This document shows, in pieces, positions 1,246-15,697 of a DNA stretch of 15,697 bases (position 1 is its first letter; the number at the start of each line of letters is the position of its first letter). The DNA lies in NCBI GenBank assembly GCA_025362155.1, contig JANYHX010000241.1, positions 1 to 15,697 on the forward strand. Reading direction: 5' to 3'. This DNA is from Gallionella sp. (GTDB lineage: Bacteria; Pseudomonadota; Gammaproteobacteria; Burkholderiales; Gallionellaceae). A program made the position numbers and the translations under genes. The notes beneath the pieces are model-generated. The model did no database searches. It saw nothing but the letters and a program-made list of their open reading frames with translations, and had not been told where the DNA came from.

Positions 1246-1620
1246 ATGAATAAACAACGTCCCAAGCACCTCGCGCTGCATCTCATTAACTTACCGCTGC
1301 CCGGTATTGTTTCTATCCTCCACCGCATCAGCGGCCTGATGTTGTTTTTTGCACTGCCATTATTGTTGCTGATGCTGCAATACAGCTTGACGTCAATCGA
1401 GACCTATACACAGCTGATGGCTCTGCTGGCTAATCCGCTGCTCAAGTTAATCTTGCTGGGTTTGTTGTGGGCGTTTCTGCATCATTTTTGCGCCGGGCTG
1501 CGTTACCTGGCGGTCGACTTACACTACGTGCGCGATCTTGCACAGGCGCGCAACAGCAGCAAAGTGGTGATGGTGGTGAGTTTGGTATTGACCATCTTTT
1601 TGGGAATAAAACTATGGTAA
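1246..1620 (+). CDS. sdhC: Succinate dehydrogenase cytochrome b556 subunit
   Basis: SdhC is one of the two membrane anchors of complex II. It holds haem b and part of the quinone site, so electrons from succinate reach ubiquinone. The 124-residue product has three membrane helices (about 28-47, 62-83, 104-123). It shows the family signature SILHRISG, in which Ser23 and Arg27 correspond to the E. coli quinone-site residues Ser27 and Arg31. The second helix carries HH-x3-GLR; His80 corresponds to the haem ligand His84 of E. coli (constant offset of four). The N-terminal RPKHLALHLINLPLPGIVS segment is typical. Its stop codon overlaps the sdhD start by 7 bases, indicating translational coupling. 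Confidence 0.93.
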   Translation: MNKQRPKHLALHLINLPLPGIVSILHRISGLMLFFALPLLLLMLQYSLTSIETYTQLMALLANPLLKLILLGLLWAFLHHFCAGLRYLAVDLHYVRDLAQARNSSKVVMVVSLVLTIFLGIKLW

Positions 1621-1961
1621 ATCGCGTCGTCGTCGGTGCGCACTATGGGTTGCGCGACTGGTTGATTCAGCGCGTCACGGCGATAGTAATGGCGGTGTAT
1701 TGTGTAGCGTTGGTGGCTTATCTGCTGATGCAGCCCCAGGTGAATTATGACGTTTGGACAGCATTGTTCTCCAGCCAGATAGTTCGCACATTCACTTTGT
1801 TATTTCTGCTCAGCGTGTTCTATCACGCCTGGATCGGCGTGCGCAATGTCGTGATGGATTACGTCAAATCTGCCGCTGTGCGGTTGGTCATTCATGTGCT
1901 AGTGATTCTGGCGTTGCTGCTGTATGCAATATGGTCGATACAGATACTTTGGGGCATGTGA
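1614..1961 (+). CDS. sdhD: Succinate dehydrogenase hydrophobic membrane anchor subunit
   Basis: This is the second membrane anchor of complex II. The 115-residue product has three predicted helices (about 21-39, 54-76, 88-112). His71, Asp82 and Tyr83 in the FYHAWIG...MDY stretch sit at exactly the positions of the E. coli SdhD haem ligand His71 and quinone-site Asp82/Tyr83, so the subunit looks functional. The ATG at 1614 is chosen because it overlaps the sdhC stop (ATGGTAA) and gives the usual length; the longer open frame upstream lies entirely within sdhC. The stop codon overlaps the sdhA start (TGATG), so sdhC, sdhD and sdhA form one transcription unit. Confidence 0.93.
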
Positions 1962-3724
1962 TGGCAATTGCAAAACGAACTTTCGATGTGGTGGTAGTCG
2001 GCGCCGGCGGCGCCGGGATGCGCGCTGCATTACAACTGGCGCAAGCCGGTTTGAAAGTCGCGGTACTATCCAAGGTGTTCCCTACCCGCTCGCACACGGT
2101 AGCTGCACAGGGCGGCATCGCTGCTTCGCTGGGCAATGTCAAGGAAGACAACTGGCATTGGCATATGTACGACACAGTGAAAGGCTCGGACTACCTGGGC
2201 GACCAGGACGCCATCGAGTTCATGTGCCGCGCCGCGCCGGAAGTCGTCTATGAGCTGGAGCATTTCGGCATGCCGTTCGACCGACTGGACAGCGGCAAGA
2301 TTTACCAACGCCCGTTCGGCGGCCATATGCAGGAATTCGGCAAGACACCGGTAGAGCGTGCTTGCGCGGCTGCCGACCGCACCGGCCATGCATTGCTGCA
2401 TACGCTGTATCAACAGAATGTAAAAGCCAATACGCATTTTTTTATTGAGTGGATGGCACTGGATTTAATACGCGATCAAGACGGCGATGTACTGGGCGTG
2501 ACCGCGATGGAAATTGAAACTGGCGAGGTAATGATGTTTCAGGCACGTGCCACGTTGTTCGCCACAGGCGGGGCGGGGCGCATTTTTCAATCCAGCACCA
2601 ATGCTTATATCAATACCGGAGATGGGCTGGGCATGGCGGCGCGCGCCGGAATTCCGCTCGAGGACATGGAATTTTTTCAGTTCCATCCCACCGGCGTGTA
2701 TGGCGCGGGCGTATTGATTTCGGAAGGAGTACGCGGTGAAGGCGGCTATCTGGTCAACAAGAATGGCGAACGCTTCATGCCAAAATATGCACCCAATGCG
2801 AAAGATTTGGCCAGCCGTGACGTGGTGTCACGCGCCATCACGGTGGAAATAAATGAGGGACGCGGTTGCGGGCCGCACGGCGACCATGTGCTACTCAAAC
2901 TGGATCACCTCGGCGATGACGTGATCAAGCAGCGGCTGCCCGGCATCCGCGAGATCGCGTTGAAATTTGCCCATGTCGATCCCGCAAAAGACCCCATACC
3001 GGTGGTGCCCACCGCGCATTACATGATGGGCGGGCTGCCCACCAACTATCACGGGCAAGTCGTTGCACCCTACAAGACCGGGCCGGATGAAGTGGTGCAC
3101 GGACTTTATGCGGTGGGCGAATGCGCCTGCGTGTCGGTGCATGGCGCGAATCGCTTGGGCTGTAATTCCTTGCTTGATTTGCTGGTATTTGGCCGTGAAG
3201 CGGGCCGGCAAATCATTGAAGACCTGAAAAGCAATCCGCATCCCAAACACTTGCCTGCCGATGCTGCCGAACGTCCGCTGGCAAGATTGGCGCGTTTGGA
3301 AAATCAAAAAAATGGCGAGCGCGTTGCCGAGGTCGGCGATGCCATGCGCAAGACCATGCAAAAACATTGCGGCGTATTCCGCTTCCCGGGCTTGCTGGCC
3401 GAAGGCGCTGAGCAGATCAGGCAGATCGCCGAAAGGGTGTCACATACCGAAATCCAGGATAAGAGCAAAGTGTTTAACACCGCGCGCATTGAGGCTTTGG
3501 AACTGGATAATTTAATCGAAGTTGCGCAAGCCACCATGGTTGCTGCCAGCGCGCGGCAGGAAAGCCGCGGTGCCCATGCGCGCGATGACTTTCCGCAGCG
3601 CGATGATGTAAATTGGCTTAAACACAGCTTGTATTTCCGCGAGGGACAACGGCTGGATTACAAACCAGTGCGACTCAAACCGCTGTCGGTGGAATCGTTT
3701 CCGCTCAAACCACGGGTGTATTAA
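1961..3724 (+). CDS. sdhA: Succinate dehydrogenase flavoprotein subunit
   Basis: SdhA oxidises succinate to fumarate in the TCA cycle and passes electrons through FAD to the iron-sulfur subunit. The 587-residue product matches the usual length (588 in E. coli). It has an N-terminal dinucleotide-binding GAGGAG motif (residues 14-19) and the covalent FAD histidine at His45 in [11 protein letters not shown]. The substrate-site residues His242 (FHPTG) and Arg286 fall at the E. coli numbering; His353 and Arg398 complete the site. The C-terminal [12 protein letters not shown]...WLKH segment is intact. The ATG at 1961 overlaps the sdhD stop; a longer open frame upstream is sdhD in another frame. Unusually, sdhB does not follow: the next gene, 86 bases downstream, is a glycosyltransferase-like membrane protein. 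Confidence 0.96.
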
Positions 3725-3810: not shown

Positions 3811-5544
3811 ATGATAAAGGAAACGCAAAAAGGAATGGGTAGTCGAGGCATCTCAGCTCTTCCTGTGGGATCGAAAACTACTCAACAATATCCCTCGCCG
3901 TCGGTATTAATCCTTTTCCTTCCTCTTCTATTGTCTTTTATAAGTCTCGCTATTCAAAACTGGTATCAGGTTTTTGATGATGCTTTTATATCCTATCGCT
4001 ATGCACAGAATCTTGCTATGGGATATGGAATTACTTGGAATCCAGGTCAAACACCCACAGAAGGCTACACAAATTTTCTTTTGATAATCATTTTGGCTCC
4101 ATTCATAAGGGCGGGTCTCGATCCGCTGTTGGTCACCAGAGTGTTAAGTTTTATCTGCGTGATCGGAATATCTGGAATATTATTTACTGTAGCTAGGCGT
4201 CAATACCACTGCTCTGCCACGGCAGCGTTTATGATTGCTGCGCTCATTTTCCTGGTTCCGGTAACGGAGATTCAATGTATTGTCGGGCTGGAAACTGTCA
4301 TCTACGCTTTTTTCCTGTTGGCTACGTTCATTGTGGGTATTACCTTTATTGACTGTCAACAACTCAAACATTCCATCATATTCAGCTGCATGCTTTTTCT
4401 TACGATGCTACTCCGTCCAGAGGCAGCGCTCTTATATCCAATCATATTTATCGCAGCTGTTGTTACTGCGATTCGTAATCAAACTACTCTGACATCACTG
4501 TTAGTTGGATTTCTAACGTTATTAACATTGGGTGGCATATATCTGACATGGAAATACTTACATTTTGGCCAACTTTTCCCCAATCCATTTTATTTGAAGG
4601 CGTCTGGAGAGACTTTGTTTAGTCCAAAAGGCATTCATAGTGTAAAGTCTTTTATAGAAGATAATACCCTTCTTATGATCTTGGCATTTTCGAGCCTTTT
4701 TTTTGGCATTTTTGCTGAACGCCAAGTACAGCCATGGAATAAAATAGTTGCACTGTCTGGCTTTGCTTTCGTTGTTGTTTACTGCTTATTCTTCACTCAC
4801 ATTGATACGCTCATGGACACTCATGGGCGTTTTCTATATCCCCTCGTCCCCCTCATCATTTTGCTGGCAAACCCCTCTCTCGCCAAAATACTTGGGTTTC
4901 TAGAACCTATTTCTGTCTTCAGAATACCTATTTTCCCCGCCATAACAGTAATATTTTTGCTCGCATTTGGCTCGTCTAATATTATTGAAATAAATCACAA
5001 CATTAAAAATTTGACTCCTAATGACTTCATGCAAACCAGCCAACTCCTCATGCCAAAGGAATATCGCATATCACAGGTACTAGCCCGCTTTCCACAAATT
5101 AAAGAGGTTCGAATTGCATTCGGTGATTCGGGAGTAATGCCCTATTTCAGTGGCGCAATATGGCTTGATGTGGTTGGGCTGAATGATGGATTCATATCAA
5201 AAATGCGTGACAAAAACAAACTAGTTGACTACTTCTTTAATTGGTCACCTGATCTTGTGATTCATCCAGGAAAAGCGGGACGGTCGTGGTTTCAGGATGG
5301 TCATGGCCCGCTTGGAGACTATCTATCTTGGTCAAATGATTCCAGGTGGGATGAATACGCATACGTTGGTACCAGCAACATACAAGGCTCGAGTTACGAT
5401 TTGCAATACTTCATCAGAAAGTCAAGCCGATTCCGTGATTCTCTCAATCGCTTTTTAAAAGCGAATGTCGTGGACGGCTGGTATGATCCATTCCCATTAT
5501 CCATTGGCACCTACCGCCCCAAGGAGATTCAGCCAATGCAGTAG
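3811..5544 (+). CDS. GT-C fold polytopic glycosyltransferase, AftB-like group
   Basis: The 577-residue protein has about ten membrane helices and a soluble C-terminal part (about 400-577). Right after the first helix comes FDDAFISYRYAQNLAMGYG (Asp56-Asp57). This is the acidic pair of GT-C enzymes, which move a sugar from a polyprenyl-phosphate donor at the outer face of the inner membrane. Further landmarks are EGYTNFL (84-90), GLET (159-162), LRPEAALL (201-208), LFPNPFYLKA (255-264), HGRF (338-341) and GDSGVMPYFSGAIWLDVVGLND (438-459). This set resembles proteins annotated as AftB-like or GT39/GT87-like; the sugar cannot be told. A start at 3835 (Met9), with AAGGAAA upstream, is an alternative. 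The gene is AT-richer than sdhA and begins the glycan cluster. Confidence 0.72.
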   Translation: MIKETQKGMGSRGISALPVGSKTTQQYPSPSVLILFLPLLLSFISLAIQNWYQVFDDAFISYRYAQNLAMGYGITWNPGQTPTEGYTNFLLIIILAPFIRAGLDPLLVTRVLSFICVIGISGILFTVARRQYHCSATAAFMIAALIFLVPVTEIQCIVGLETVIYAFFLLATFIVGITFIDCQQLKHSIIFSCMLFLTMLLRPEAALLYPIIFIAAVVTAIRNQTTLTSLLVGFLTLLTLGGIYLTWKYLHFGQLFPNPFYLKASGETLFSPKGIHSVKSFIEDNTLLMILAFSSLFFGIFAERQVQPWNKIVALSGFAFVVVYCLFFTHIDTLMDTHGRFLYPLVPLIILLANPSLAKILGFLEPISVFRIPIFPAITVIFLLAFGSSNIIEINHNIKNLTPNDFMQTSQLLMPKEYRISQVLARFPQIKEVRIAFGDSGVMPYFSGAIWLDVVGLNDGFISKMRDKNKLVDYFFNWSPDLVIHPGKAGRSWFQDGHGPLGDYLSWSNDSRWDEYAYVGTSNIQGSSYDLQYFIRKSSRFRDSLNRFLKANVVDGWYDPFPLSIGTYRPKEIQPMQ

Positions 5545-5574: not shown

Positions 5575-6507
5575 ATGTCTATTATTTCCATTGTTGTTCC
5601 AGTATATCAAGCTGAACATTGCCTTGACGAGCTTTATCACCGTCTGAGGGGTGCGCTTGAAAGTATTTCACCGGATTTTGAAATCGTGCTGGTAGAAGAC
5701 TGTGGTGGCGACAATTCATGGCAAGTGATCGAGCGGCTGGCTGCGGCTGACCCGCGCGTGCGCGGCATCCAGTTCAGTCGCAACTTTGGCCAGCATTACG
5801 GCATCACGGCCGGGCTGGATCACTGTCACGGTGACTGGGTGGTAGTAATGGATTGCGACTTGCAGGATCGCCCCGAAGAAATCCCGCGCCTGTATGCCAA
5901 AGCGCAAGAAGGTTTCGATATTGTATTGGCGTTGCGCGGGGCGCGTCATGATCCGTTCTTGAAACGCCTGACCTCATCGCTGTTTTACAAGGTATTCAGT
6001 TATCTCGCGGATATAGAATACGACGGGGCGAGCGGTAATTTCCGCATTATGTCGCGTAAGGTAGTAACAAGCTTCCGCCGTATGGGCGAGCAATTACGCT
6101 TCTTCGGCGGGTTAGTACAGTGGCTCGGATTCCCGACCAGCAGCATAGAGGTGGAACACGCCGAACGTTTTGAGGGAAACTCCACCTATACATTTTCCAA
6201 GCTATGGAAATTGGCTACCGAAACCATCATTGCCTACTCCGATAAACCATTGCGTATCGGTGTGCGTTTTGGCTTTGGCATGGCTGCGCTGGCCTTCTGC
6301 TATGGCCTGTATATTTTAATGCGCGCTTGGGTGCATGGCTCTCCAATACCAGGCTGGAATAGTTTGATTGTGTCGCTGTATTTTATTGGTGGAATCATCA
6401 TTGCGATGCTGGGCATTATTGGCATCTACTTGGGCAAGGCCTTCGACGAAAGCAAGAAGCGACCACTCTATATCATCAGGCGATCCACCTTTGAACACGC
6501 TGATTAA
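5575..6507 (+). CDS. GT2 polyprenyl-phosphate glycosyltransferase (GtrB/ArnC/DPM1-like)
   Basis: This cytoplasmic-face enzyme probably transfers a sugar from a nucleotide donor to undecaprenyl phosphate. The 310-residue product has a GT-A domain opening with SIVVPVYQAE. It contains VEDCGGDNS (40-48), the metal/nucleotide motif DCDLQD (93-98), SGNFRIMSR (153-161), FFGGLVQWLGF (176-186) and the GNSTYTFSKL box (201-210), which is diagnostic for the GtrB/ArnC/DPM1 group. Two C-terminal membrane helices (about 229-250 and 264-288) end in IYLGKAFDESKKRPLYI. Length and layout match GtrB (about 310 residues). A GtrA-family gene lies two genes downstream, which supports a GtrA/GtrB pair. It starts 30 bases after the GT-C gene, and its 3' end overlaps the acetyltransferase start by 17 bases. 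It is GC-richer than the gene before it. Confidence 0.85.
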   Translation: MSIISIVVPVYQAEHCLDELYHRLRGALESISPDFEIVLVEDCGGDNSWQVIERLAAADPRVRGIQFSRNFGQHYGITAGLDHCHGDWVVVMDCDLQDRPEEIPRLYAKAQEGFDIVLALRGARHDPFLKRLTSSLFYKVFSYLADIEYDGASGNFRIMSRKVVTSFRRMGEQLRFFGGLVQWLGFPTSSIEVEHAERFEGNSTYTFSKLWKLATETIIAYSDKPLRIGVRFGFGMAALAFCYGLYILMRAWVHGSPIPGWNSLIVSLYFIGGIIIAMLGIIGIYLGKAFDESKKRPLYIIRRSTFEHAD

Positions 6508-7159
6508 GCCTACCCCATGGGACACGGCGGCGTTCGACATGCCAACCTGGGAGCTGACCGAATATTCTGAAGAGGCACTGCAACAAGCCGCACAAACGCC
6601 CGGACACTACACTCTGAAGGTCGATCCATTAGCGGATAAAAAATTGTTGCACGAGTATGGCTTCTACTACTGCGATACCTTGATGACACCGCATTGCAAC
6701 GCAACGCGCTTACGTGCGTTGCAACATCCAGAGACAACTATTTCCAAGGATGTTGATGTTGAACACGCTTTGGCGATTTGCCACGGGGCTTTCGCACATG
6801 GTCGTTTTAATCGTGATTTTAATCTGCCCCAAGAGAGGGCTGATCTGCGCTATGACAGCTGGCTGAAGCAACTGCTCGAAGCTCAACAGGTTTATGGACT
6901 GTACTGGAAAAATGAGCTGGCTGGTTTCGTCGGATATAGCGGTAATAGCCTGGTGTTGCACGCAGTGGCGGAAAAGTATCGCGGCAAGGGTTTAACGAAA
7001 TACTGGTGGAGCGCGGTGTGTGGCGAATTGCTGGCAACCGGGCATGAGGAAGTGAAAAGCTCTATTTCTGCTGCTAATCTCGCGGTACTTAACCTGTATG
7101 TTTCGCTTGGTTTCAGCTTCAAAAATCCACAAGACATCTATCATTGCCTAATACCATGA
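6491..7159 (+). CDS. wecD: WecD-like GNAT acetyltransferase (dTDP-4-amino-4,6-dideoxygalactose N-acetyltransferase candidate)
   Basis: The product is a GNAT N-acetyltransferase. The acetyl-CoA binding loop is YRGKG (163-167), followed by the NLAVLNLYVSLGFSF strand-helix. Tyr203 aligns with the catalytic Tyr208 of E. coli WecD. Upstream, FAHGRFNRD and YDSWL match WecD landmarks, and PWDTAAF (9-15) matches the LTWENAFFG opening. WecD acetylates dTDP-Fuc4N, the product of WecE; a wecE gene lies in the same cluster, which supports this role. The start is uncertain. TTG at 6491 gives 222 residues (224 in E. coli), places the Trp at residue 10 as in the family and overlaps the GT2 gene by 17 bases. 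The first in-frame ATG after the GT2 stop (6539) would delete the W-D-T segment. Another acyl or amino-sugar specificity remains possible. Confidence 0.72.
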   Translation: MNTLIKPTPWDTAAFDMPTWELTEYSEEALQQAAQTPGHYTLKVDPLADKKLLHEYGFYYCDTLMTPHCNATRLRALQHPETTISKDVDVEHALAICHGAFAHGRFNRDFNLPQERADLRYDSWLKQLLEAQQVYGLYWKNELAGFVGYSGNSLVLHAVAEKYRGKGLTKYWWSAVCGELLATGHEEVKSSISAANLAVLNLYVSLGFSFKNPQDIYHCLIP

Positions 7160-7232
7160 GTGATTTGCCACCTCTCCCCTACCCTGTTGCTCTATGCAAG
7201 TCTGGATTTAAATTAGGTCGCGCATAGACTTG

Positions 7233-7652
7233 ATGATTGAGCCATCTGAAAATATTCAAAATGCACGAAGGGATAAACCTGCACTGCAATTACTTCGATA
7301 TGGCGTGGTAGGGTTAGGAACTAATTTAGCCCTTTATTTTATTTACTTGTTTATTACCTATTGGGGTCTCGAACCAAAAAAGGCTATGACTGTGTTGTAT
7401 ATCATAGGCGCACTCATGGGATTTTTTGGTCACCGTAAATGGACATTCACCCACCAAGGAGCTTTCCTTGGGTCTGGGATCAGATATTTCATTGCACATC
7501 TACTCGGGTATTTGATTAATTTTATTATCTTGCTGACCTTTGTCGACAAGCTTGGTTACGCTCATCAGTGGGTTCAGGCAGGAGCAATACTTGTAGTTGC
7601 CGGATTTCTTTTTGTGGCTTTCAGGTATTTCGTTTTTCCGAAACCTGAGTAA
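7233..7652 (+). CDS. GtrA-family small membrane protein (lipid-linked sugar flippase-like)
   Basis: The 139-residue protein has four membrane helices and the GtrA-family marks RYGVVGLGTNL at the first helix, GHRKWTF after the second and FRYFVF at the C-terminus. GtrA-type proteins are believed to move undecaprenyl-phosphate-linked sugars across the inner membrane, working with a GtrB-type GT2 enzyme. Such an enzyme is encoded at 5575-6507. The ATG at 7233 is preferred over the adjacent TTG at 7230. No strong ribosome binding site is visible. It is preceded by a 73-base spacer, which holds a 7-base inverted repeat (7191-7197/7222-7228) of unknown meaning, and followed by a large membrane protein after 28 bases. 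Confidence 0.85.
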   Translation: MIEPSENIQNARRDKPALQLLRYGVVGLGTNLALYFIYLFITYWGLEPKKAMTVLYIIGALMGFFGHRKWTFTHQGAFLGSGIRYFIAHLLGYLINFIILLTFVDKLGYAHQWVQAGAILVVAGFLFVAFRYFVFPKPE

Positions 7653-7680
7653 CGGCGAGAATATTAAATGAATATTATTC

Positions 7681-9291
7681 GTGGCTAGCATTTCCATTTT
7701 TCTGCGGGGCATGAAAGATCGCCCCGCGCTCCTCTCATTTTTATGGGTAGCCACGTTCATCATCTCGCTTTGTCTGGTGTTTGTTCCGTGCTGGGAAAGA
7801 AACGACGATGTTGCCATGTCAATGATCGCCCATGGCTACGGGCTTGCCGCCTATAGCTCACCGCACCTGTTTTTTTCCAATATTCTGTGGGGTTACCTGG
7901 TTCGCGTCATACCAACCGTCAGTGGTGTATTGGGCTATTCGCTCGCTACGATGGGCGTTTTGCTGGTGCTCGGGTGGGCGACTCTATATTTTCTGGTTCG
8001 ACTGGGCGCAGGCTACCTCATCGGATTGCTTGCGGTTTCATTGCTTATTGCGCTGCCTACGCTGGTTCCCCAGTTCACGGTTAACGCCGGGCTGTTGACC
8101 GTGGCTGCTGTCATCGGTTGGCAGGTTTATGCTCGACTTGGGGGGAGGAGCATTCTTGTGTCTGCGTGCCTGCTCGCATTCTTGGGCTACCTGATACGGG
8201 ACAAGGAATTTTTATTAGTGCTAGTCGTGGCAGTGCCTCTGCTGCCTTGGCGCGCATTACGACAGCGGCAGGAAATGCAGATCGCTTTCTTGTTGTTAAG
8301 TGTGGCGATTGTCTCGGCCTCAGCCTTTGATCATTGGTCTTACAGTGGCCCGGAGTGGCAACACTTCATGGAGATGTACCCCAGCCTGACATCCATCATC
8401 GACTTCCAGGCCGGAGAGCATCTCAAACAACACCCGGAAATATTAGGTCGGCATGGCTATTCTCAAAATGATATTGATCTGGTTATAAATTGGTTTTTTG
8501 TTGATCCGCACATTGCTGACCCGAAATCACTGAAGGCGATGCTGGCTGAACTCGGCTCTTTTCCCATGCAGGAGGGTAATGTCCAATCTGGCTTTGTGGC
8601 CATTAAAGCACTATTTGTCCCCGTGTTGCTGCCGATACTTTTGTCGGCGCTACTTCTCCTTGTGCTGATGCCACGATGGTCGGTGGCGCTTGCCTGGGTA
8701 CTCTGTCTGGTAGCTTTGTTCGCCATGGGTTTCATGGGGCGCCCTGGTCAGTTGCGGGTATATGTGCCTTTGATGAGTTTGTTATTCGTTGCACCTCTCA
8801 TCTCAGGAGGAAAATATATAACCGGTGCCCGGCAATGGATGGCGCTGCCAATACTGTTAGCGGCCTGCATTGCGAACGCTTATTTACTCATTCCTCAAGC
8901 ATTGATATCCAAGCAATGGGCACAACAAGTTCAGAGTGATATCCATGGCTTTCCCGCCGGGCCTATCGTCATCTGGGGAGGAGATTTTCCCTACGAACTC
9001 GCCTTTCCGGTATTAGCCAACGACCTGAGTTCCCGCAAGATCAAGCTGTATGGACTGGACGGATTCACTCACGCCCCTTTTTCAGTGGCTAGTACCGAGC
9101 AGGCGTCGGGTCGTGAAATACTGGAAAGTTTACGCACAGCGACAGGAATTCCGATCATTGCCTCATCAGAAAGGATGGCGATGCTGCGCATTTATTGCAG
9201 GGAACATTTAAACGGACAACTACACAAGCTCGCAACATCTCAAACTCGATCGCTCACAATTGAGCAGCTACGCTGCGAGACGAGCTATTGA
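7681..9291 (+). CDS. Unrecognised polytopic membrane protein, candidate GT-C transferase
   Basis: I cannot assign this 536-residue protein to a named family. It has about ten to twelve membrane helices in two blocks (about 14-210 and 305-402) and a loop of about 90 residues between them. A soluble C-terminal part of about 130 residues follows. After the first helix comes ERNDDVAMSM (Asn41-Asp42-Asp43), an acidic pair placed as in GT-C glycosyltransferases. Its position beside gtrA and the GT2 gene makes it the obvious candidate for the final periplasmic transfer, by analogy with the serotype-specific GtrC-type genes. This is inference. The start is uncertain: GTG at 7681 lacks a good ribosome binding site, and ATG at 7711 (Met11) is possible. 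The stop codon lies inside an inverted-repeat element that appears to have landed in an original TAG stop. Confidence 0.6.
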   Translation: MASISIFLRGMKDRPALLSFLWVATFIISLCLVFVPCWERNDDVAMSMIAHGYGLAAYSSPHLFFSNILWGYLVRVIPTVSGVLGYSLATMGVLLVLGWATLYFLVRLGAGYLIGLLAVSLLIALPTLVPQFTVNAGLLTVAAVIGWQVYARLGGRSILVSACLLAFLGYLIRDKEFLLVLVVAVPLLPWRALRQRQEMQIAFLLLSVAIVSASAFDHWSYSGPEWQHFMEMYPSLTSIIDFQAGEHLKQHPEILGRHGYSQNDIDLVINWFFVDPHIADPKSLKAMLAELGSFPMQEGNVQSGFVAIKALFVPVLLPILLSALLLLVLMPRWSVALAWVLCLVALFAMGFMGRPGQLRVYVPLMSLLFVAPLISGGKYITGARQWMALPILLAACIANAYLLIPQALISKQWAQQVQSDIHGFPAGPIVIWGGDFPYELAFPVLANDLSSRKIKLYGLDGFTHAPFSVASTEQASGREILESLRTATGIPIIASSERMAMLRIYCREHLNGQLHKLATSQTRSLTIEQLRCETSY

Positions 9292-9414
9292 GCATTACAT
9301 AATTCGCGACAACCATTCCGTTCGGGCTGAGGTATCGAAGCCTAAGGCTGGTACAAGGTTTCGCCCTTCGATACCTCAGGGTGAACGGTGTAATGAGTTA
9401 TGTAATGCTCAATA
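9286..9414. mobile_element. MITE-like nested inverted-repeat element with TA flanks
   Basis: An 18-bp perfect outer inverted repeat (9285-9302 and 9398-9415) encloses an imperfect inner one (9318-9340 and 9366-9388; 20 of 23 pairs). The central loop is 25 bases. The inner arm (CCGTTCGGGCTGAGGTATCG and its complement) resembles the short REP-like palindromes scattered through many proteobacterial genomes. Each outer arm contains TA next to TTGAGC, so the element can be read as 9288-9412 with 15-bp terminal repeats and a TA target duplication. That is the pattern of MITEs mobilised by Tc1/mariner-IS630 type transposases. It contains no gene. Because the arms are palindromic, the exact ends are inferred. 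Transcribed, it would fold into a long hairpin between the upstream membrane protein gene and wecE. Confidence 0.72.
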
Positions 9415-9465
9415 GTGAAGCGGCACAATTGTTTAATTTTCGTAACTAGTTAAAAATGAGAAGCC

Positions 9466-10593
9466 ATGAATAATATTCCATTCAATAAACCCTACATGAC
9501 GGGCCGCGAACTCTGGTATATCGCACAGGCGCATACCAATGGTCACCTCGCTGGTGATGGCATGTTCACAAAAAAATGCCATGCCTGGCTGGAAGCGCGC
9601 ACTGGTACGCATAAGGCATTGCTCTCCCATTCATGCACCGCAGCTTTGGAAATGGCAGCCATCCTTGCGGATATCCAGCCGGGCGATGAAGTGATCATGC
9701 CTTCCTACACTTTTGTCTCTACGGCTAATGCCTTTGTTTTGCGTGGGGGTGTGCCAGTCTTTGTGGACATTCGTCCGGATACGCTCAACATTGACGAGAC
9801 CAGGATAGAAGAGGCCATCACGCCGCGCACCAAGGCCATCGTGCCAGTACATTACGCAGGGGTAGCCTGCGAAATGGACGTCATCATGGGCATCGCACAG
9901 CGGCATAAACTCTTGGTCATAGAGGATGCTGCGCAGGCTGTCATGTCTACCTACAAGGGTAAGCCGCTGGGTACGGTCGGACACTTGGGTGCCTATTCTT
10001 TTCATGAAACCAAAAACATCATTTCCGGGGAAGGCGGTGCCTTGCTGGTCAATGATGAGCGCTTTGCCGAACGCGCGGAGATCATTCGCGAGAAAGGTAC
10101 TAACCGCAGCCAGTTTTTTCGCGGCCAGGTAGACAAATATACCTGGATGGATATTGGATCGTCTTATTTGCCTGGCGAAGTAATCGCGGCATTTCTTTGG
10201 GCACAGATGGAAGAAGCGCAGACCATTACTCAGAGGCGCTTGGATCTCTGGCATCGATACCATGAAGCATTGTCTGCGCTTGAAGGAGTGGGCAAGTTAC
10301 GCCGCCCTATTATTCCGGAAGGTTGCCAGCACAATGCTCACATGTATTACATCTTGCTTGAGTCACTGGAAAAACGGACCGAGGTGATCGCCAGACTGAA
10401 AGAACACAATGTAAATGCCGTGTTCCACTATGTGCCGTTACACAGCTCCCCGGCCGGGAAAAAATATGGGCGAACCAGTGGCGAATTACGGCATACCAAT
10501 AATCAGGCAGAGCGGCTATTACGACTGCCTTTGTGGCTGGATATGGCTGAAGCGCAAGACAGGGTGATCACGCAATTACAGGCGATTATTTAA
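9466..10593 (+). CDS. wecE: dTDP-4-amino-4,6-dideoxygalactose transaminase
   Basis: WecE (RffA) is a PLP enzyme of the DegT/DnrJ/EryC1 family. It converts dTDP-4-keto-6-deoxyglucose to dTDP-4-amino-4,6-dideoxygalactose using glutamate. The 375-residue product is nearly full family length (376 in E. coli). It contains long stretches that I recall as near-identical to E. coli WecE: IQPGDEVIMPSYTFVSTANA (70-89), VPVHYAGVACEMD (126-138), IREKGTNRSQFFRGQVDKYTW and ERLLRLPLW. The PLP-binding lysine is Lys183 in SFHETKN; Asp154 and Gln157 in EDAAQ contact the cofactor. The start at 9466 follows a weak GAGAAG site. It lies 51 bases past the MITE-like element and is the last plus-strand gene, converging on the gene ending at 10666. 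RmlA/RmlB, which would supply the substrate, are not in this window. Confidence 0.93.
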   Translation: MNNIPFNKPYMTGRELWYIAQAHTNGHLAGDGMFTKKCHAWLEARTGTHKALLSHSCTAALEMAAILADIQPGDEVIMPSYTFVSTANAFVLRGGVPVFVDIRPDTLNIDETRIEEAITPRTKAIVPVHYAGVACEMDVIMGIAQRHKLLVIEDAAQAVMSTYKGKPLGTVGHLGAYSFHETKNIISGEGGALLVNDERFAERAEIIREKGTNRSQFFRGQVDKYTWMDIGSSYLPGEVIAAFLWAQMEEAQTITQRRLDLWHRYHEALSALEGVGKLRRPIIPEGCQHNAHMYYILLESLEKRTEVIARLKEHNVNAVFHYVPLHSSPAGKKYGRTSGELRHTNNQAERLLRLPLWLDMAEAQDRVITQLQAII

Positions 10594-10665: not shown

Positions 10666-13044
10666 CTATTTTATCTGCTCAGGATTATTTTTTGCATTAG
10701 GCGAACTATTGCAATAAACAGAAATCAGTCTTCCCGATGCACATTTTTCATATTGATCTGCGACATCTCCGTAAACCATATTCAAAGGTGACAAAATATC
10801 TCCTTCACGATAGATTGCACTGCCAAATAAATCATGCAAATGAACAACATTGGGACTTGTTTCTGATAGCGAATGAATGTCTATACTATGCCCTATGTCA
10901 CTATCAACGAACAAGAATGTGGGTTTGTTTATCAATATAGCTTTTACAGCTTCTTCTACTTCTTTGGGAGTGGCCAAATTTGTGAGGAGTTCATTGTAGG
11001 GCATTGCACTATATTTGCCAGCCAGAATTGGCAGTAGATGGTCATATTTCGAGATGATGTAAATTCCTTTTATATCGGGGCTGTATTGCTTAATTAGAAT
11101 GGTGGCTTCTTCAAAGAGTTCAGGCTCCATCGTTGATGTAAAAGACGCATCTTCAAATGACCACTGATATAACTGATGATTCGCGAAGGTCTTGTTATAA
11201 GAATGCTGGTTTTTGTAAAAGTGAAAAGACGCTGCAATGTACACAAATAATAGCGGCACAAACAGGAGCGTCTGTATCGTTGCTATTTTTTCTTTACCTT
11301 GAATATTAGATATCCACCCGTGATATAGGGCAGCAATCCACAAGATAAAAACGGGAGCAATACCCCATATATGATGTAAGGATGGATACCAAATATAATA
11401 TGTCAGGCTCATTACAAAGTAGAGAGCCAGTCCCACTGTAAGAATCTTATATGCTTCGCTTTGTTTTACCCATATTGTGACCGCCAGTAATGCACCAACC
11501 CATACCAATAAAGAAAAGATGTGCGGGGAGGTAATTTGAGGAGACCCCACCCCCATGAGCATATAAATCGCTGTAGGATTTGAACCTGGCATAGGATAAA
11601 AATAAAGCATCAACCCAAACACCAGCATTACGCAACCAAAGAATAGCGGCAATTGTTGAAATGGTCGCTGTTTTAAACTCTTAAACAAAAGGGCGCCTCC
11701 TACGGACAGCGAGAGATACAAACCAAAATCCTTGCTCCACAAAATTGCAAACAGGGCGAAGCCGCATGCGAAAAATAAATATGCTTTTCGATCTAGTGCC
11801 AAATAGCGGTATAACAGATAAAACACTGGGACATCAAAGATATGCCGCACTGGATTAAACCCCGGGGGCAACTTAATCAACTCAATTCCAAGCTCAAGCA
11901 ATGCAGAGATTGCCAGAATGCCCGCAAAAACCACCGTATCCAATCTTCTGAAAATAAGCCAAACACCCCATAAAAAAATGGCAAAACAAATAAGGTAGGC
12001 GGAAAAGAATTCTTTGAAGTACCCTTGATAATTCATCATCCCCAATGAGTCAAGGAGTTGACCCTGTGTAATAGTACTTAACCAGCCATAAACCATGGTC
12101 TGCTTATCCGGTGATGCCCCCTTAGACAGCGCATACATAGGACCAAAGTTATAATTATGATGATAAAAGAACCAGCCTCTTGTTTCCCTCGCCTCTGACC
12201 TGACTTCGTTTCGTTCAATAAAATCATTTTCTTCAGTTGAAAAGCGACGTGAAGAATCGATAGAATTTAATGTCCCATACTCCATTTGCGAATATTCAAT
12301 TTTATTGGTCTTATTCGCTGAATGTTTTTCTTTTCGGGGATCATATAGCTGTATTCCTACTATTTTGTGTTTGTTTAAGAAATTGATGTTATCAACAATC
12401 TTTCCAGATTTTAGAATCGTCTTCTCAGAGATGTTTAGATAATCATTCCCAATCAACACTGGGTTTGTAATCAACGGTACAAAAATGGACACATATTGGA
12501 TAACTATTACGCACAGAACAATCGCCAATAACCATTTTGGCATGGGAAGAGTCAACCATTGTTTTCGCCAAAGGGAAAAAGGAAGCCACAAAAATAGCAC
12601 CAGCCATACTACGGAGAGTGTACCTATAAGCGCCATCCTCTCTTTATTTGCCAGCAACAGAGCTGCATTAACCATGAAGATCGCCAGGAAATAAGCCCAC
12701 ATTCTTGGGAATTGATCTCTATGGAATTTTTCTTCCCCTTTTACAATAATTCGGGTTAAAGCGATAACGAGTGGGTAGTAAGCGAATATCCCCACCACAG
12801 GTAAAACATACTGCAATAACGATGTTGTCTTTCCGCCTACTGGGGGGGCGCCTGTCCAAGGATACAAGTTTGAGTAAAGATTTTCGGGTAGGTGGAAGAC
12901 CTGTCCCAAAAAACCAGCGATATACATAAATACGACAATCAGGCCAGCGCTGCAAATCGAGAAATGCGCCACCAATAAATTATGCAAGCTTTTCCCGGCC
13001 AAATACTCCTCGCACTGTTGCATCCACTTCATGTCATTTACCAC
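10666..13044 (-). CDS. Large orphan polytopic membrane protein (792 residues)
   Basis: I do not recognise a named family. The protein has an N-terminal block of membrane helices (about 28-50, 76-100, 116-132, 138-158, 170-192) and a large polar region (about 193-345). A second helix block follows (about 345-620), then a soluble C-terminal domain (about 625-792). Landmarks are ENLYSNLYPWTGAPPVGG (54-71) in the first loop and FFYHHNYNFGPMYALSKGAS (292-311) at the end of the polar region. The size and the two large extracytoplasmic-looking domains fit a GT-C-type or oligosaccharide-transfer protein, but no catalytic motif can be named. The GTG at 13044 lies 13 bases after the preceding gene; ATG at 13032 or 13023 are possible starts. 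It is AT-rich like its operon neighbours. Confidence 0.6.
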   Translation of the reverse strand: MVNDMKWMQQCEEYLAGKSLHNLLVAHFSICSAGLIVVFMYIAGFLGQVFHLPENLYSNLYPWTGAPPVGGKTTSLLQYVLPVVGIFAYYPLVIALTRIIVKGEEKFHRDQFPRMWAYFLAIFMVNAALLLANKERMALIGTLSVVWLVLFLWLPFSLWRKQWLTLPMPKWLLAIVLCVIVIQYVSIFVPLITNPVLIGNDYLNISEKTILKSGKIVDNINFLNKHKIVGIQLYDPRKEKHSANKTNKIEYSQMEYGTLNSIDSSRRFSTEENDFIERNEVRSEARETRGWFFYHHNYNFGPMYALSKGASPDKQTMVYGWLSTITQGQLLDSLGMMNYQGYFKEFFSAYLICFAIFLWGVWLIFRRLDTVVFAGILAISALLELGIELIKLPPGFNPVRHIFDVPVFYLLYRYLALDRKAYLFFACGFALFAILWSKDFGLYLSLSVGGALLFKSLKQRPFQQLPLFFGCVMLVFGLMLYFYPMPGSNPTAIYMLMGVGSPQITSPHIFSLLVWVGALLAVTIWVKQSEAYKILTVGLALYFVMSLTYYIWYPSLHHIWGIAPVFILWIAALYHGWISNIQGKEKIATIQTLLFVPLLFVYIAASFHFYKNQHSYNKTFANHQLYQWSFEDASFTSTMEPELFEEATILIKQYSPDIKGIYIISKYDHLLPILAGKYSAMPYNELLTNLATPKEVEEAVKAILINKPTFLFVDSDIGHSIDIHSLSETSPNVVHLHDLFGSAIYREGDILSPLNMVYGDVADQYEKCASGRLISVYCNSSPNAKNNPEQIK

Positions 13045-13057
13045 TTAAGATTATTTT

Positions 13058-14365
13058 TTATAAATAGGTAATGTTCACCAATGAAGCGCTATTGGAATTT
13101 AACTGTGGCTGATTTTTCTGCGTCAATTGGCTAATTTCATAAAGCATAGTGGTCAGTAAAGTAAAGTTCAGGATGGGTCTGAGAACGCTCCCCATTCCCA
13201 ATGTCCAATGAACCTCAACAATTGAGTTGGTCAGATATGAATATTGCTCACCTATTGTCTGCCTTGCCAAAGGAATCAAATCGAGAGGTGCAAATAGCAG
13301 TATTAGAATGGCTAAATAAGCATTTTTGAATTTCATTGTGAGAAATATAGGCAATAGCGTGATATAAAAAATAAGGGACCACCCGCCTACCCATGCTCCT
13401 AAATTAGTAATTGCAACTAGCAAAATGGCAAATATTTGCGTATCACTTAGTGGCTTATTTTTGCTGTATAGAACAACAAATATCCATGCAAGAACAAACC
13501 AATTGATTGCCAAGATTACATTGGCAATGGCATGTAGATTGAAAAAGTAACTGTACTTGGTTGCATGTTTAATTGCTTCATGGTTAAACACATAAGAAAA
13601 CGCCGAGATGCTTGACGGCATTGCCATTACCTCTTTCAACGAAAGAGTCGCGCCAATTTGCGAGAAGTGGAACATGTTGCTAAAAATGAGCAGGAAATGG
13701 GAGTCAAATAGGATGCCAGTAAACACAAATAGTATGCTGGATAACAAGGTAGCAAGCCAAAAATATTTCCATTTGCGCCTAACCAGATAAAAAAATATCA
13801 GCAACGCGAAATAGGGCTTTAGATTAATCAACACAGCGATGCAAAAAACTCGATATAAGCCTTCGCTACTAAGCATGAGTGCGATAAACACCAGCGTATA
13901 GATAATGAGATTCCCACGCTCAAGTGCGAAAAGCATCGGAGTGCTCAAGATAATAATAAAATAGAGCAATGTTTTCTCTGCGCCGGTGAAACTATTCCAC
14001 AGCTTTGTCCTTAAAACGAGCAAGGGAGTAATCAGGTAACTGGATAGAAAAAAAAGTACAACAGAGAAAGCTGACGCACGTAACGCTACTGAATTGGAAA
14101 AAATTGTGTTACCTAAAAATATCTGCTTAATTAACTTGAGAAAAATAAAATTCAGTGGCGGATAAAATGATTCCCACACGGTGTATACACCGCCATTATC
14201 AGACCAAAATAAGGGGCGAAATAAATCCATAAAAACTTCATGCTTATAATAGAAAAATGGGCTAGGCAAATAACCATGCCGACCCAGAAACCACATATAA
14301 AAGAAGAACCCAAGAAACTGGATTCCTAAAATTAGCACTAAGGTGGGGGTGTGAGGGCGATTCAC
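13058..14365 (-). CDS. GT87-like polytopic membrane glycosyltransferase
   Basis: The 435-residue protein has about ten membrane helices. The first loop holds YKHEVFMDLFRPLFWS (Asp47) and then FYPPLNFIFLKL (68-79). Helix 4 is followed by ALERGNLIIYTL (148-157), and NLKPYFALL is at 181-189. The acidic residue after helix 1, the YPP box, the E-x-GN box and the K-P-Y box are the pattern of the GT87/DUF2029 branch of GT-C transferases, which use polyprenyl-phosphate sugars. Substrate is unknown. Translation starts at GTG 14365, with AGGA 6 bases upstream. It lies 46 bases after the 145-residue protein gene and 13 bases before the 792-residue one, so the three probably share a transcript. Strongly AT-biased base composition suggests acquisition. 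Confidence 0.6.
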   Translation of the reverse strand: MNRPHTPTLVLILGIQFLGFFFYMWFLGRHGYLPSPFFYYKHEVFMDLFRPLFWSDNGGVYTVWESFYPPLNFIFLKLIKQIFLGNTIFSNSVALRASAFSVVLFFLSSYLITPLLVLRTKLWNSFTGAEKTLLYFIIILSTPMLFALERGNLIIYTLVFIALMLSSEGLYRVFCIAVLINLKPYFALLIFFYLVRRKWKYFWLATLLSSILFVFTGILFDSHFLLIFSNMFHFSQIGATLSLKEVMAMPSSISAFSYVFNHEAIKHATKYSYFFNLHAIANVILAINWFVLAWIFVVLYSKNKPLSDTQIFAILLVAITNLGAWVGGWSLIFYITLLPIFLTMKFKNAYLAILILLFAPLDLIPLARQTIGEQYSYLTNSIVEVHWTLGMGSVLRPILNFTLLTTMLYEISQLTQKNQPQLNSNSASLVNITYL

Positions 14366-14956: not shown

Positions 14957-15697
14957 TCAATCAAAATTTATTCTTTCCTTTTCCACCACCACAGGACGAC
15001 GTTGCAGATAGGTGTGGATTGAGCCAATGTATTCGCCCAGGATTCCGATAAACATTAACTGGATGCCAAACAGAAAGAAAAGGCCTATGACCACGGGAGC
15101 GAACCCGAGTGGAAAGGATTCCCAAAACATTAGCTTGAGTACCATGTAAACGATTGCTACAAGCACGCTAATCATCCCAAGTGCAAATCCTGCGAAAGCC
15201 GCAATTCGAATGGGTACTTTCGAATGACTGACAATGCCGAGCATGGCGATGTCATAGAGTGAGTAAAAATTATTCTTCGAAATGCCGCGCAACCGTCTCG
15301 GCTGTGCAAAGGGAATTGTCTTGATTTCGTAACCAAGTTCGCAAATTAACCCACGCAGGAAGGGATAAGGATCATCAATCTTGCGCAACTGGTCGAGCAC
15401 TTCTCTGTCGTAAAGGCCAAATCCCGTTGCATCTGTTACTAACGTAATATCAGAAATTCCATCCAAAAAATTATAGTAGGTCTTGCGTAGGGTATGGATC
15501 CAAGCAACACCTTTGCTCACTGGCTTGGTCGCCATGACCAGCTTGTAACCTTCCTCCCAGTGGCGAATAAACTCGGGAATCAATTCCGGCGGATCCTGCA
15601 GATCGGAGGCAAGATAAATTGTGGCGTTGCCACTGGACTGGAGAATTCCGTAGTAGGGCGAGCGGATATGACCGAAATTACGCGTGTTAACGATGAT
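14957..15697 (-). CDS. GT2 polyprenyl-phosphate glycosyltransferase, C-terminal part (runs off the right edge)
   Basis: An open frame is continuous from the right edge to the TGA at 14957-14959 and gives the last 246 residues; the N-terminus is outside the window. The visible part starts in the GT-A core with TRNFGHIRSPY and the metal/nucleotide motif SDLQDPPE. DATGFGLYDREV, FLRGLICELGYEI and the RLRGISKNNFYSLYD box follow, then two membrane helices and a tail GEYIGSIHTYLQRRPVVV. This is the GtrB/ArnC/DPM1-like group, which loads a sugar onto undecaprenyl phosphate. It differs clearly from the other GT2 enzyme in the window (5575-6507) and heads the leftward operon, as far as can be seen. An internal TTG at 15583 is not a credible start because it would remove the catalytic DLQD motif. 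Confidence 0.85.
   Translation of the reverse strand: MIVNTRNFGHIRSPYYGILQSSGNATIYLASDLQDPPELIPEFIRHWEEGYKLVMATKPVSKGVAWIHTLRKTYYNFLDGISDITLVTDATGFGLYDREVLDQLRKIDDPYPFLRGLICELGYEIKTIPFAQPRRLRGISKNNFYSLYDIAMLGIVSHSKVPIRIAAFAGFALGMISVLVAIVYMVLKLMFWESFPLGFAPVVIGLFFLFGIQLMFIGILGEYIGSIHTYLQRRPVVVEKERINFD

Follow-up and report, generated by a model that had tools for sequence, protein, structure and literature searches.

A predicted module for the synthesis, lipid loading and export of Fuc4NAc in a Gallionella genome

The stretch of DNA analyzed here (the window, 15,697 nucleotides) is the entire contig C193 (JANYHX010000241.1) of a Gallionella sp. genome (GCA_025362155.1) of 2.2 Mb in 330 contigs that is 87.8% complete. 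Five genes lie together on its forward strand. They probably form a dedicated extracytoplasmic module of the three-component type, similar to the Gtr and Arn systems, for undecaprenyl-phosphate-linked 4-acetamido-4,6-dideoxygalactose (Und-P-Fuc4NAc). A preliminary description had placed the open reading frames (ORFs) correctly, all on the forward strand, and only the start of the acetyltransferase gene has been changed. The five genes are:

5575..6507, + strand: glycosyltransferase family 2 protein (GT2) of the ArnC/GtrB/PgfS superfamily, putative dTDP-Fuc4NAc:Und-P transferase (Pfam, NCBIfam, PDB and ArnC comparison)
6491..7159, + strand: GNAT acetyltransferase, putative dTDP-Fuc4N N-acetyltransferase (TTG start inferred; WecD-like by fold)
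7230..7652, + strand: GtrA-family small membrane protein, putative Und-P-Fuc4NAc flippase (PF04138)
7681..9291, + strand: polytopic protein modelled as glycosyltransferase of the GT-C type, putative periplasmic Fuc4NAc transferase (N-D-D motif after helix 1)
9466..10593, + strand: WecE, dTDP-4-dehydro-6-deoxyglucose transaminase, proposed maker of dTDP-Fuc4N (TIGR02379 and identity to E. coli WecE)

Families and folds of the five proteins

The transaminase exceeds the Pfam cut-off for DegT_DnrJ_EryC1 (308 bits). It also scores 646.2 bits in the NCBIfam model for WecE of the enterobacterial common antigen (ECA) pathway (TIGR02379, ECA_wecE; cut-off 434.85), which bears out the identity first given to it, and at most 221 bits in the models for PseC, ArnB and the other sugar transaminases listed. 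It is 62% identical to E. coli WecE over 366 residues and keeps the HETKN motif.

The GT2 protein exceeds the cut-off for Glycos_transf_2 (PF00535, 98.2 bits). Its best NCBIfam model is PgfS (229 bits; cut-off 500), and in the ArnC model NF007986 it scores 167.5 bits (cut-off 529). The label “GtrB/ArnC-like” of the preliminary description holds at the superfamily level, with both scores below the curated cut-offs. The best solved relative in the PDB is sll0501 (215.8 bits), ArnC structures are also among the best, and identity to E. coli ArnC is 31%. As in Gtr-type systems, the protein is a membrane GT-A enzyme of the polyprenyl-phosphate sugar synthase type. The GT2 copies that belong to module loci are 53-90% identical to that of the window, and the DCD motif is present in all aligned copies; other GT2 proteins in the same loci are 25-32% identical to the window GT2 or to ArnC.

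The GNAT frame is open from 6368, and homologues start near 6491 with TTG, giving an overlap of 17 bases with the GT2 frame; the coordinates 6491-7159 rest on this homologue alignment. The protein exceeds the Pfam cut-off for Acetyltransf_10 (30.4 bits). In the WecD model NF008212 it gives a weak match over residues 3-210 (17.2 bits; cut-off 219), whereas E. coli WecD, as a control, scores 357.6 bits. Structure comparison of the model points to a WecD fold across the full length of the protein. The earlier term “WecD-like acetyltransferase” is borne out by fold and not by curated sequence models. A sequence-level link was rejected: hhalign aligned the GNAT alignment (A1) with E. coli WecD over a 26-column off-register match alone (probability 2.9), and WecD was not among the matches listed in a PDB profile search. 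The remaining pointers are the structure comparison and the weak full-length NCBIfam match. Searches of plasmid and phage collections with GNAT gave no match in either.

The small membrane protein matches GtrA_DPMS_TM (PF04138) with 56.7 bits (cut-off 26.1), which puts a predicted small flippase of the GtrA family in the module; a PDB sequence search with it returned nothing useful. The product of 7681-9291 exceeds no Pfam cut-off. Its predicted structure, a comparison proposed in the preliminary description, models as a GT-C fold, the transferase type of Gtr systems. The N-D-D motif noted earlier after its first helix is real: N41, D42 and D43 are each at least 90% conserved across 35 aligned homologues.

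Conservation of the module across genomes

A genome scan with GNAT gave 24 loci, reduced to 22 after the exclusion of L024 and L025 (32-33%, partial). The hosts are metagenome-assembled genomes (MAGs), in which bin errors are possible, of Gallionella, Nitrosomonadales, Methylococcales, Polaromonas and of Desulfobacterota-type, cyanobacterial and verrucomicrobial organisms, together with the isolate Tuberibacillus calidus DSM 17572. A full-length GT2 gene lies directly 5' of GNAT in 20 of the 22 loci; in L008 the GT2 match at this place is partial, and in L021 another GNAT gene separates the two. WecE lies within 6 kb of GNAT in 21 of 22 (the exception is L023). The tandem GNAT pair of L021 (7247-8865), from a cyanobacterial MAG, is 22% and 46% identical to the window GNAT.

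In the family to which the window belongs, a strong full-length GNAT match was found in 27 of 158 genomes, and a class-wide census found GNAT at E<=1e-30 in 2 of 369, its own genome included in both; the module is thus rare in the class. A set of 31 genomes, again with the window's own, was assembled from 23 of the 27 strong positives (G020, G033, G087 and G151 were left out for lower completeness), together with 8 genomes of at least 95% completeness out of the 127 that gave no match. A fragment in G009 (5.9e-18) and weak matches in G044, G046 and G075 were counted neither way. WecE was over the cut-off in 22 of the 23 GNAT-positive genomes and in none of the 8 GNAT-negative ones (Fisher p ~1e-6, kinship uncorrected). 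RmlB was over the cut-off in 20/23 and 8/8, respectively, and so does not tell the two groups apart. A chance neighbourhood was ruled out by the family-wide distribution of GNAT, the co-occurrence of WecE and the conservation of the loci, and the gene-neighbourhood check proposed in the preliminary description came out in favor of its pathway.

A WecF-type transferase elsewhere in the genome had been named as a finding that would count against that pathway. WecF (PF07429) was found in 0/31 genomes, the window's own included (E. coli was detected in the control set), and an ECA-like locus was ruled out on this ground. Among the ten window proteins scanned with Pfam and NCBIfam, no WecF, WecG or Wzx/Wzy was recognized, as first described.

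The strongest single locus is that of T. calidus (L022), where one row on one strand reads RmlA-RmlB-GT2-GNAT-ArnF-like-WecE. RmlA is 61% identical to RffH, RmlB 50% to RffG and WecE 65% to E. coli WecE; GT2 and GNAT are 53% and 48% identical to those of the window, and GT2 is the sole transferase in the row. The locus holds a predicted enzyme for each step from glucose-1-phosphate to flipped lipid-linked Fuc4NAc. Just 5' of the row are genes for UppP (BacA family) and a VTT-domain protein (DedA-type). Both families take part in undecaprenyl-phosphate recycling.

A second informative locus, L075 (genome G081), resembles the window closely (GT2 85%, GtrA 74%, GT-C 64% and WecE 88% identity). 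In place of GNAT it has a hexapeptide acyltransferase (4860-5420; best NCBIfam models NeuD/PglB/VioB, below cut-off), and G081 has no GNAT match genome-wide. Such a substitution lends support to the view that GNAT serves to N-acylate what WecE makes. The change of acyltransferase also favors an alternative, compatible with the general mechanism, in which the predicted reactions hold and the end product is Qui4NAc (the 4-epimer), a different N-acyl form or a methylated form; so does the class I methyltransferase often found near the module (MTF291 or MTF205, and one in L075). The transaminase scores and the identity to E. coli WecE speak for Fuc4NAc itself, and the ORF list and Pfam recognized no methyltransferase in the window block. 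We regard another sugar as unlikely. An apparent methyltransferase-WecE fusion in L019 (595-aa ORF) was ruled out, as these are two genes in different frames.

The slot 3' of GNAT was compared in 39 non-redundant loci (11 duplicates and the truncated L061 were excluded). It holds GtrA in 16, an ArnE/F-like protein of the small multidrug resistance (SMR) family in 16, neither in 7 and both in none. These loci are not phylogenetically independent, those from genomes with G designations were shown with about 1.5 kb per side, and some of the counted loci were themselves among the SMR and GtrA queries. For three SMR proteins tested, the top NCBIfam models were ArnF and then ArnE, with scores of at most 63 bits (cut-off 99).

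Several observations weigh against the proposed module. The search for RmlB was negative in the 87.8%-complete genome of the window and in the GNAT-positive G084 and G156. GNAT-positive G157 lacks WecE at the threshold used; its GNAT locus is cut shortly 3' of the SMR gene, where the contig may end. Seven of the 39 loci have no flippase next door. G008 carries the family of the 7681-9291 protein, yet the 16 kb read there contain no module gene, and GNAT is missing genome-wide (WecE was not searched there). In the two relatives with wider surroundings read, the module lies near lipopolysaccharide (LPS) or O-antigen genes (a Kdo transferase, a heptosyltransferase and a GT4-type initiator in L079; Wzx-like and O-antigen ligase genes in L080-L081), whereas that of the window lies beside sdhA.

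The LPS and O-antigen genes near the module in these relatives favor a rival explanation. In it, an ordinary cytoplasmic transferase of O-antigen or capsule synthesis uses the product of WecE and GNAT, and GT2, GtrA and GT-C are an independent, merely adjacent Gtr system whose sugar is glucose, GlcNAc or galactose. In the available text of the papers cited here and below, published Gtr-type systems carry these three sugars (PMC11127046, PMC8035078), and Fuc4NAc genes have been reported in the O-antigen clusters of two E. coli strains (PMC7725333). The adjacency of GT2 and GNAT across phyla, the T. calidus row with GT2 as its only transferase, the grouping of module GT2 copies and the WecF result all speak for one shared module instead, and two independent systems appear quite improbable.

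The GT-C protein and the surrounding genes

The tie of the 7681-9291 protein to this sugar is the weakest step of the pathway. In the four loci where its family and the module share one stretch (window, L002, L004 and L075), the gene sits between GtrA and WecE, and the flippase is always GtrA. Seven genomes carry the family; five of them have GNAT, and a sixth (G081) has the hexapeptide version. In many other loci the nearby GT-C protein is ArnT-like, and L012 has a GtrII-family transferase 3' of WecE. An ArnT-like transferase occurs in 16 loci, of which 10 have SMR, 1 has GtrA and 5 have neither (kinship uncorrected); flippase type and transferase type tend to go together. In G010 an SMR protein lies beside GNAT (L047), and the 7681-9291 family with GtrA is on another contig (L077). 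This speaks against a strict flippase-transferase rule, and the pair of GtrA and this family may be a separable unit. Transposase-like fragments (by eye) adjoin genes of the family in L077 (1-564) and L078 (377-811), which fits island mobility.

ArnT-like enzymes in the other loci are accompanied in some by MBOAT and SGNH-type genes. An ArnT-like transferase, an SGNH-type protein and an MBOAT O-acyltransferase were seen near the module in L005, L006, L013, L016, L017, L019 and L020; the nearby MBOAT and SGNH-type genes suggest O-acylation of the module's glycan.

The window holds further genes of related types:

3811..5544, + strand: polytopic protein, possibly another GT-C transferase; ends 30 bases 5' of GT2, pathway membership uncertain
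10666-13044, - strand: polytopic protein, convergent on the module
13058-14365, - strand: polytopic protein, convergent on the module
14957-15697, - strand: second PgfS-like GT2 (NCBIfam), cut by the contig end

These bear on a further alternative, compatible with the remaining mechanism, in which the 7681-9291 protein acts on a different lipid-linked sugar, such as the product of the second GT2, and another polytopic protein of the window transfers Fuc4NAc. The three further polytopic proteins with the second GT2, the variety of GT-C proteins elsewhere and the occurrence of the family in G008 without module genes favor it, and it has been weighted higher because of the arrangement in G010. 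Against it stand the position between GtrA and WecE in four loci and the co-occurrence with GNAT or its hexapeptide substitute in six of the seven genomes. On this evidence the alternative is doubtful, and 7681-9291 is kept as the most likely transferase of the module.

The 3811-5544 product has a 71% homologue at the same place in L002 and scores 26.6 bits in NCBIfam NF047440 (LA_3751/LA_3752), far under the cut-off of 200. PDB sequence searches found no relative of it and nothing useful for 10666-13044. The three reverse-strand genes probably belong to another lipid-linked sugar pathway that converges on the first; a 145-aa protein is also encoded on this strand among the genes 3' of WecE (ORF list). 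At the left end of the window are a PAP2-like gene, a YceI-like gene, sdhC, sdhD and sdhA (by eye from ORF translations). The sdh genes span 1246-3724, and the sole sdhB found is on contig C213 (L083 9539-11884), with genes similar to sdhE and gltA (by eye) 3' of it. This split may reflect an insertion of the glycosylation genes into the sdh operon or, alternatively, a rearranged genome or assembly at this place. A window scan for promoters and terminators was uninformative, with 9 promoter-like sites (11.6 expected) and 11 terminator-like sites (7.8 expected). On contig C320 of the same genome (L030) there are homologues of ArnA (59%, 39%) and ArnC (49%), and the organism thus seems, from these matches, to have an Arn-type pathway too.

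The proposed pathway and its relation to known systems

The predicted activities would follow one another from cytoplasm to periplasm. RmlA and RmlB, encoded elsewhere, would supply cytoplasmic dTDP-4-keto-6-deoxyglucose, which WecE would aminate to dTDP-Fuc4N and GNAT would N-acetylate to dTDP-Fuc4NAc. GT2 would transfer Fuc4NAc to undecaprenyl phosphate, and GtrA (elsewhere the ArnE/F-like SMR protein) would move Und-P-Fuc4NAc to the outer leaflet. On the periplasmic side, a GT-C protein, here most likely 7681-9291, would then attach the sugar to an exported acceptor, of which LPS or another surface glycan is the likeliest. The preliminary description had proposed this combination of dTDP-Fuc4NAc synthesis, Und-P loading, flipping and GT-C transfer. 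The co-inherited gene set, the tracking of GNAT by WecE, the T. calidus row with RmlA and RmlB, the lack of WecF in the 31 genomes, the GT-C model of 7681-9291 and the ArnE/F-like protein in the flippase slot elsewhere lend it support, at the level of sequence and modelled structure.

Three-component systems (GT-A, flippase and GT-C) are well described for glucose, galactose, GlcNAc and pentofuranoses (PMC11127046, PMC8035078, PMC7389260), with ArnE/ArnF and GtrA among the small flippase candidates (PMC7389260). Like Gtr-type systems (GtrA/GtrB/Gtr-type; CsbB/GtcA/YfhO), the window has a GT-A Und-P loader, a GtrA flippase and a GT-C transferase (PMC11127046, PMC7389260, PMC8035078), but its cassette includes the sugar-making WecE and acetyltransferase, and its predicted donor is dTDP-linked. 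With the Arn pathway for 4-amino-4-deoxy-L-arabinose (L-Ara4N) it shares a transaminase, N-acylation, ArnC-type loading, a small membrane flippase (ArnE/F-like in 16/39 loci) and a GT-C protein. It differs in having WecE for ArnB, a predicted acetyl for a formyl group and a GT2 only 31% identical to ArnC, and among the ORFs compared with E. coli proteins none was best matched by ArnD. The module would thus be Arn-like, working with Wec sugar enzymes and Gtr parts. With the Fuc4NAc branch of ECA synthesis (RffH, RffG, WecE, WecD and WecF) it shares a close WecE and the predicted donor dTDP-Fuc4NAc, which WecF uses to add Fuc4NAc to lipid II-ECA (PMC12212991, an ECA review). In contrast to that branch, its genomes lack WecF, its acetyltransferase is WecD-like by fold only and its sugar would be carried on Und-P by itself.

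Full-text literature searches, whose coverage excludes subscription papers, turned up no description of an Und-P-Fuc4NAc system. Genes resembling wecE are not new in themselves outside Enterobacterales: in the available text of PMC12608077, a putative glycosyltransferase in the common polysaccharide antigen (CPA) locus of some P. syringae strains has as its neighbors rfbA, rfbB and a gene that bears the name wecE. Fuc4NAc itself is reported in Gammaproteobacteria only, E. coli O-antigen clusters included, as far as the text of PMC7725333 goes.

It is somewhat more likely than not that the pathway is self-contained and portable and leads from dTDP-4-keto-6-deoxyglucose to flipped Und-P-Fuc4NAc. 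GT2 and WecE would be its constant parts, flippase and N-acyltransferase its exchangeable ones, and it would deliver one lipid-linked amino sugar to different surface acceptors across phyla. The occurrence of Fuc4NAc would then extend beyond Gammaproteobacteria, contrary to that report. The GNAT protein is unrecognizable as WecD by curated sequence models, which may explain why Fuc4NAc synthesis would have been overlooked outside Enterobacterales. The same GT2 and WecE with different flippases and GT-C proteins offer a natural test set for flippase specificity. If the proposed pathway is true, 4-acetamido-4,6-dideoxygalactose would join the sugars known to be carried singly by Und-P, and the Arn and Gtr logics may be two forms of a single modular scheme in which flippases can be swapped.

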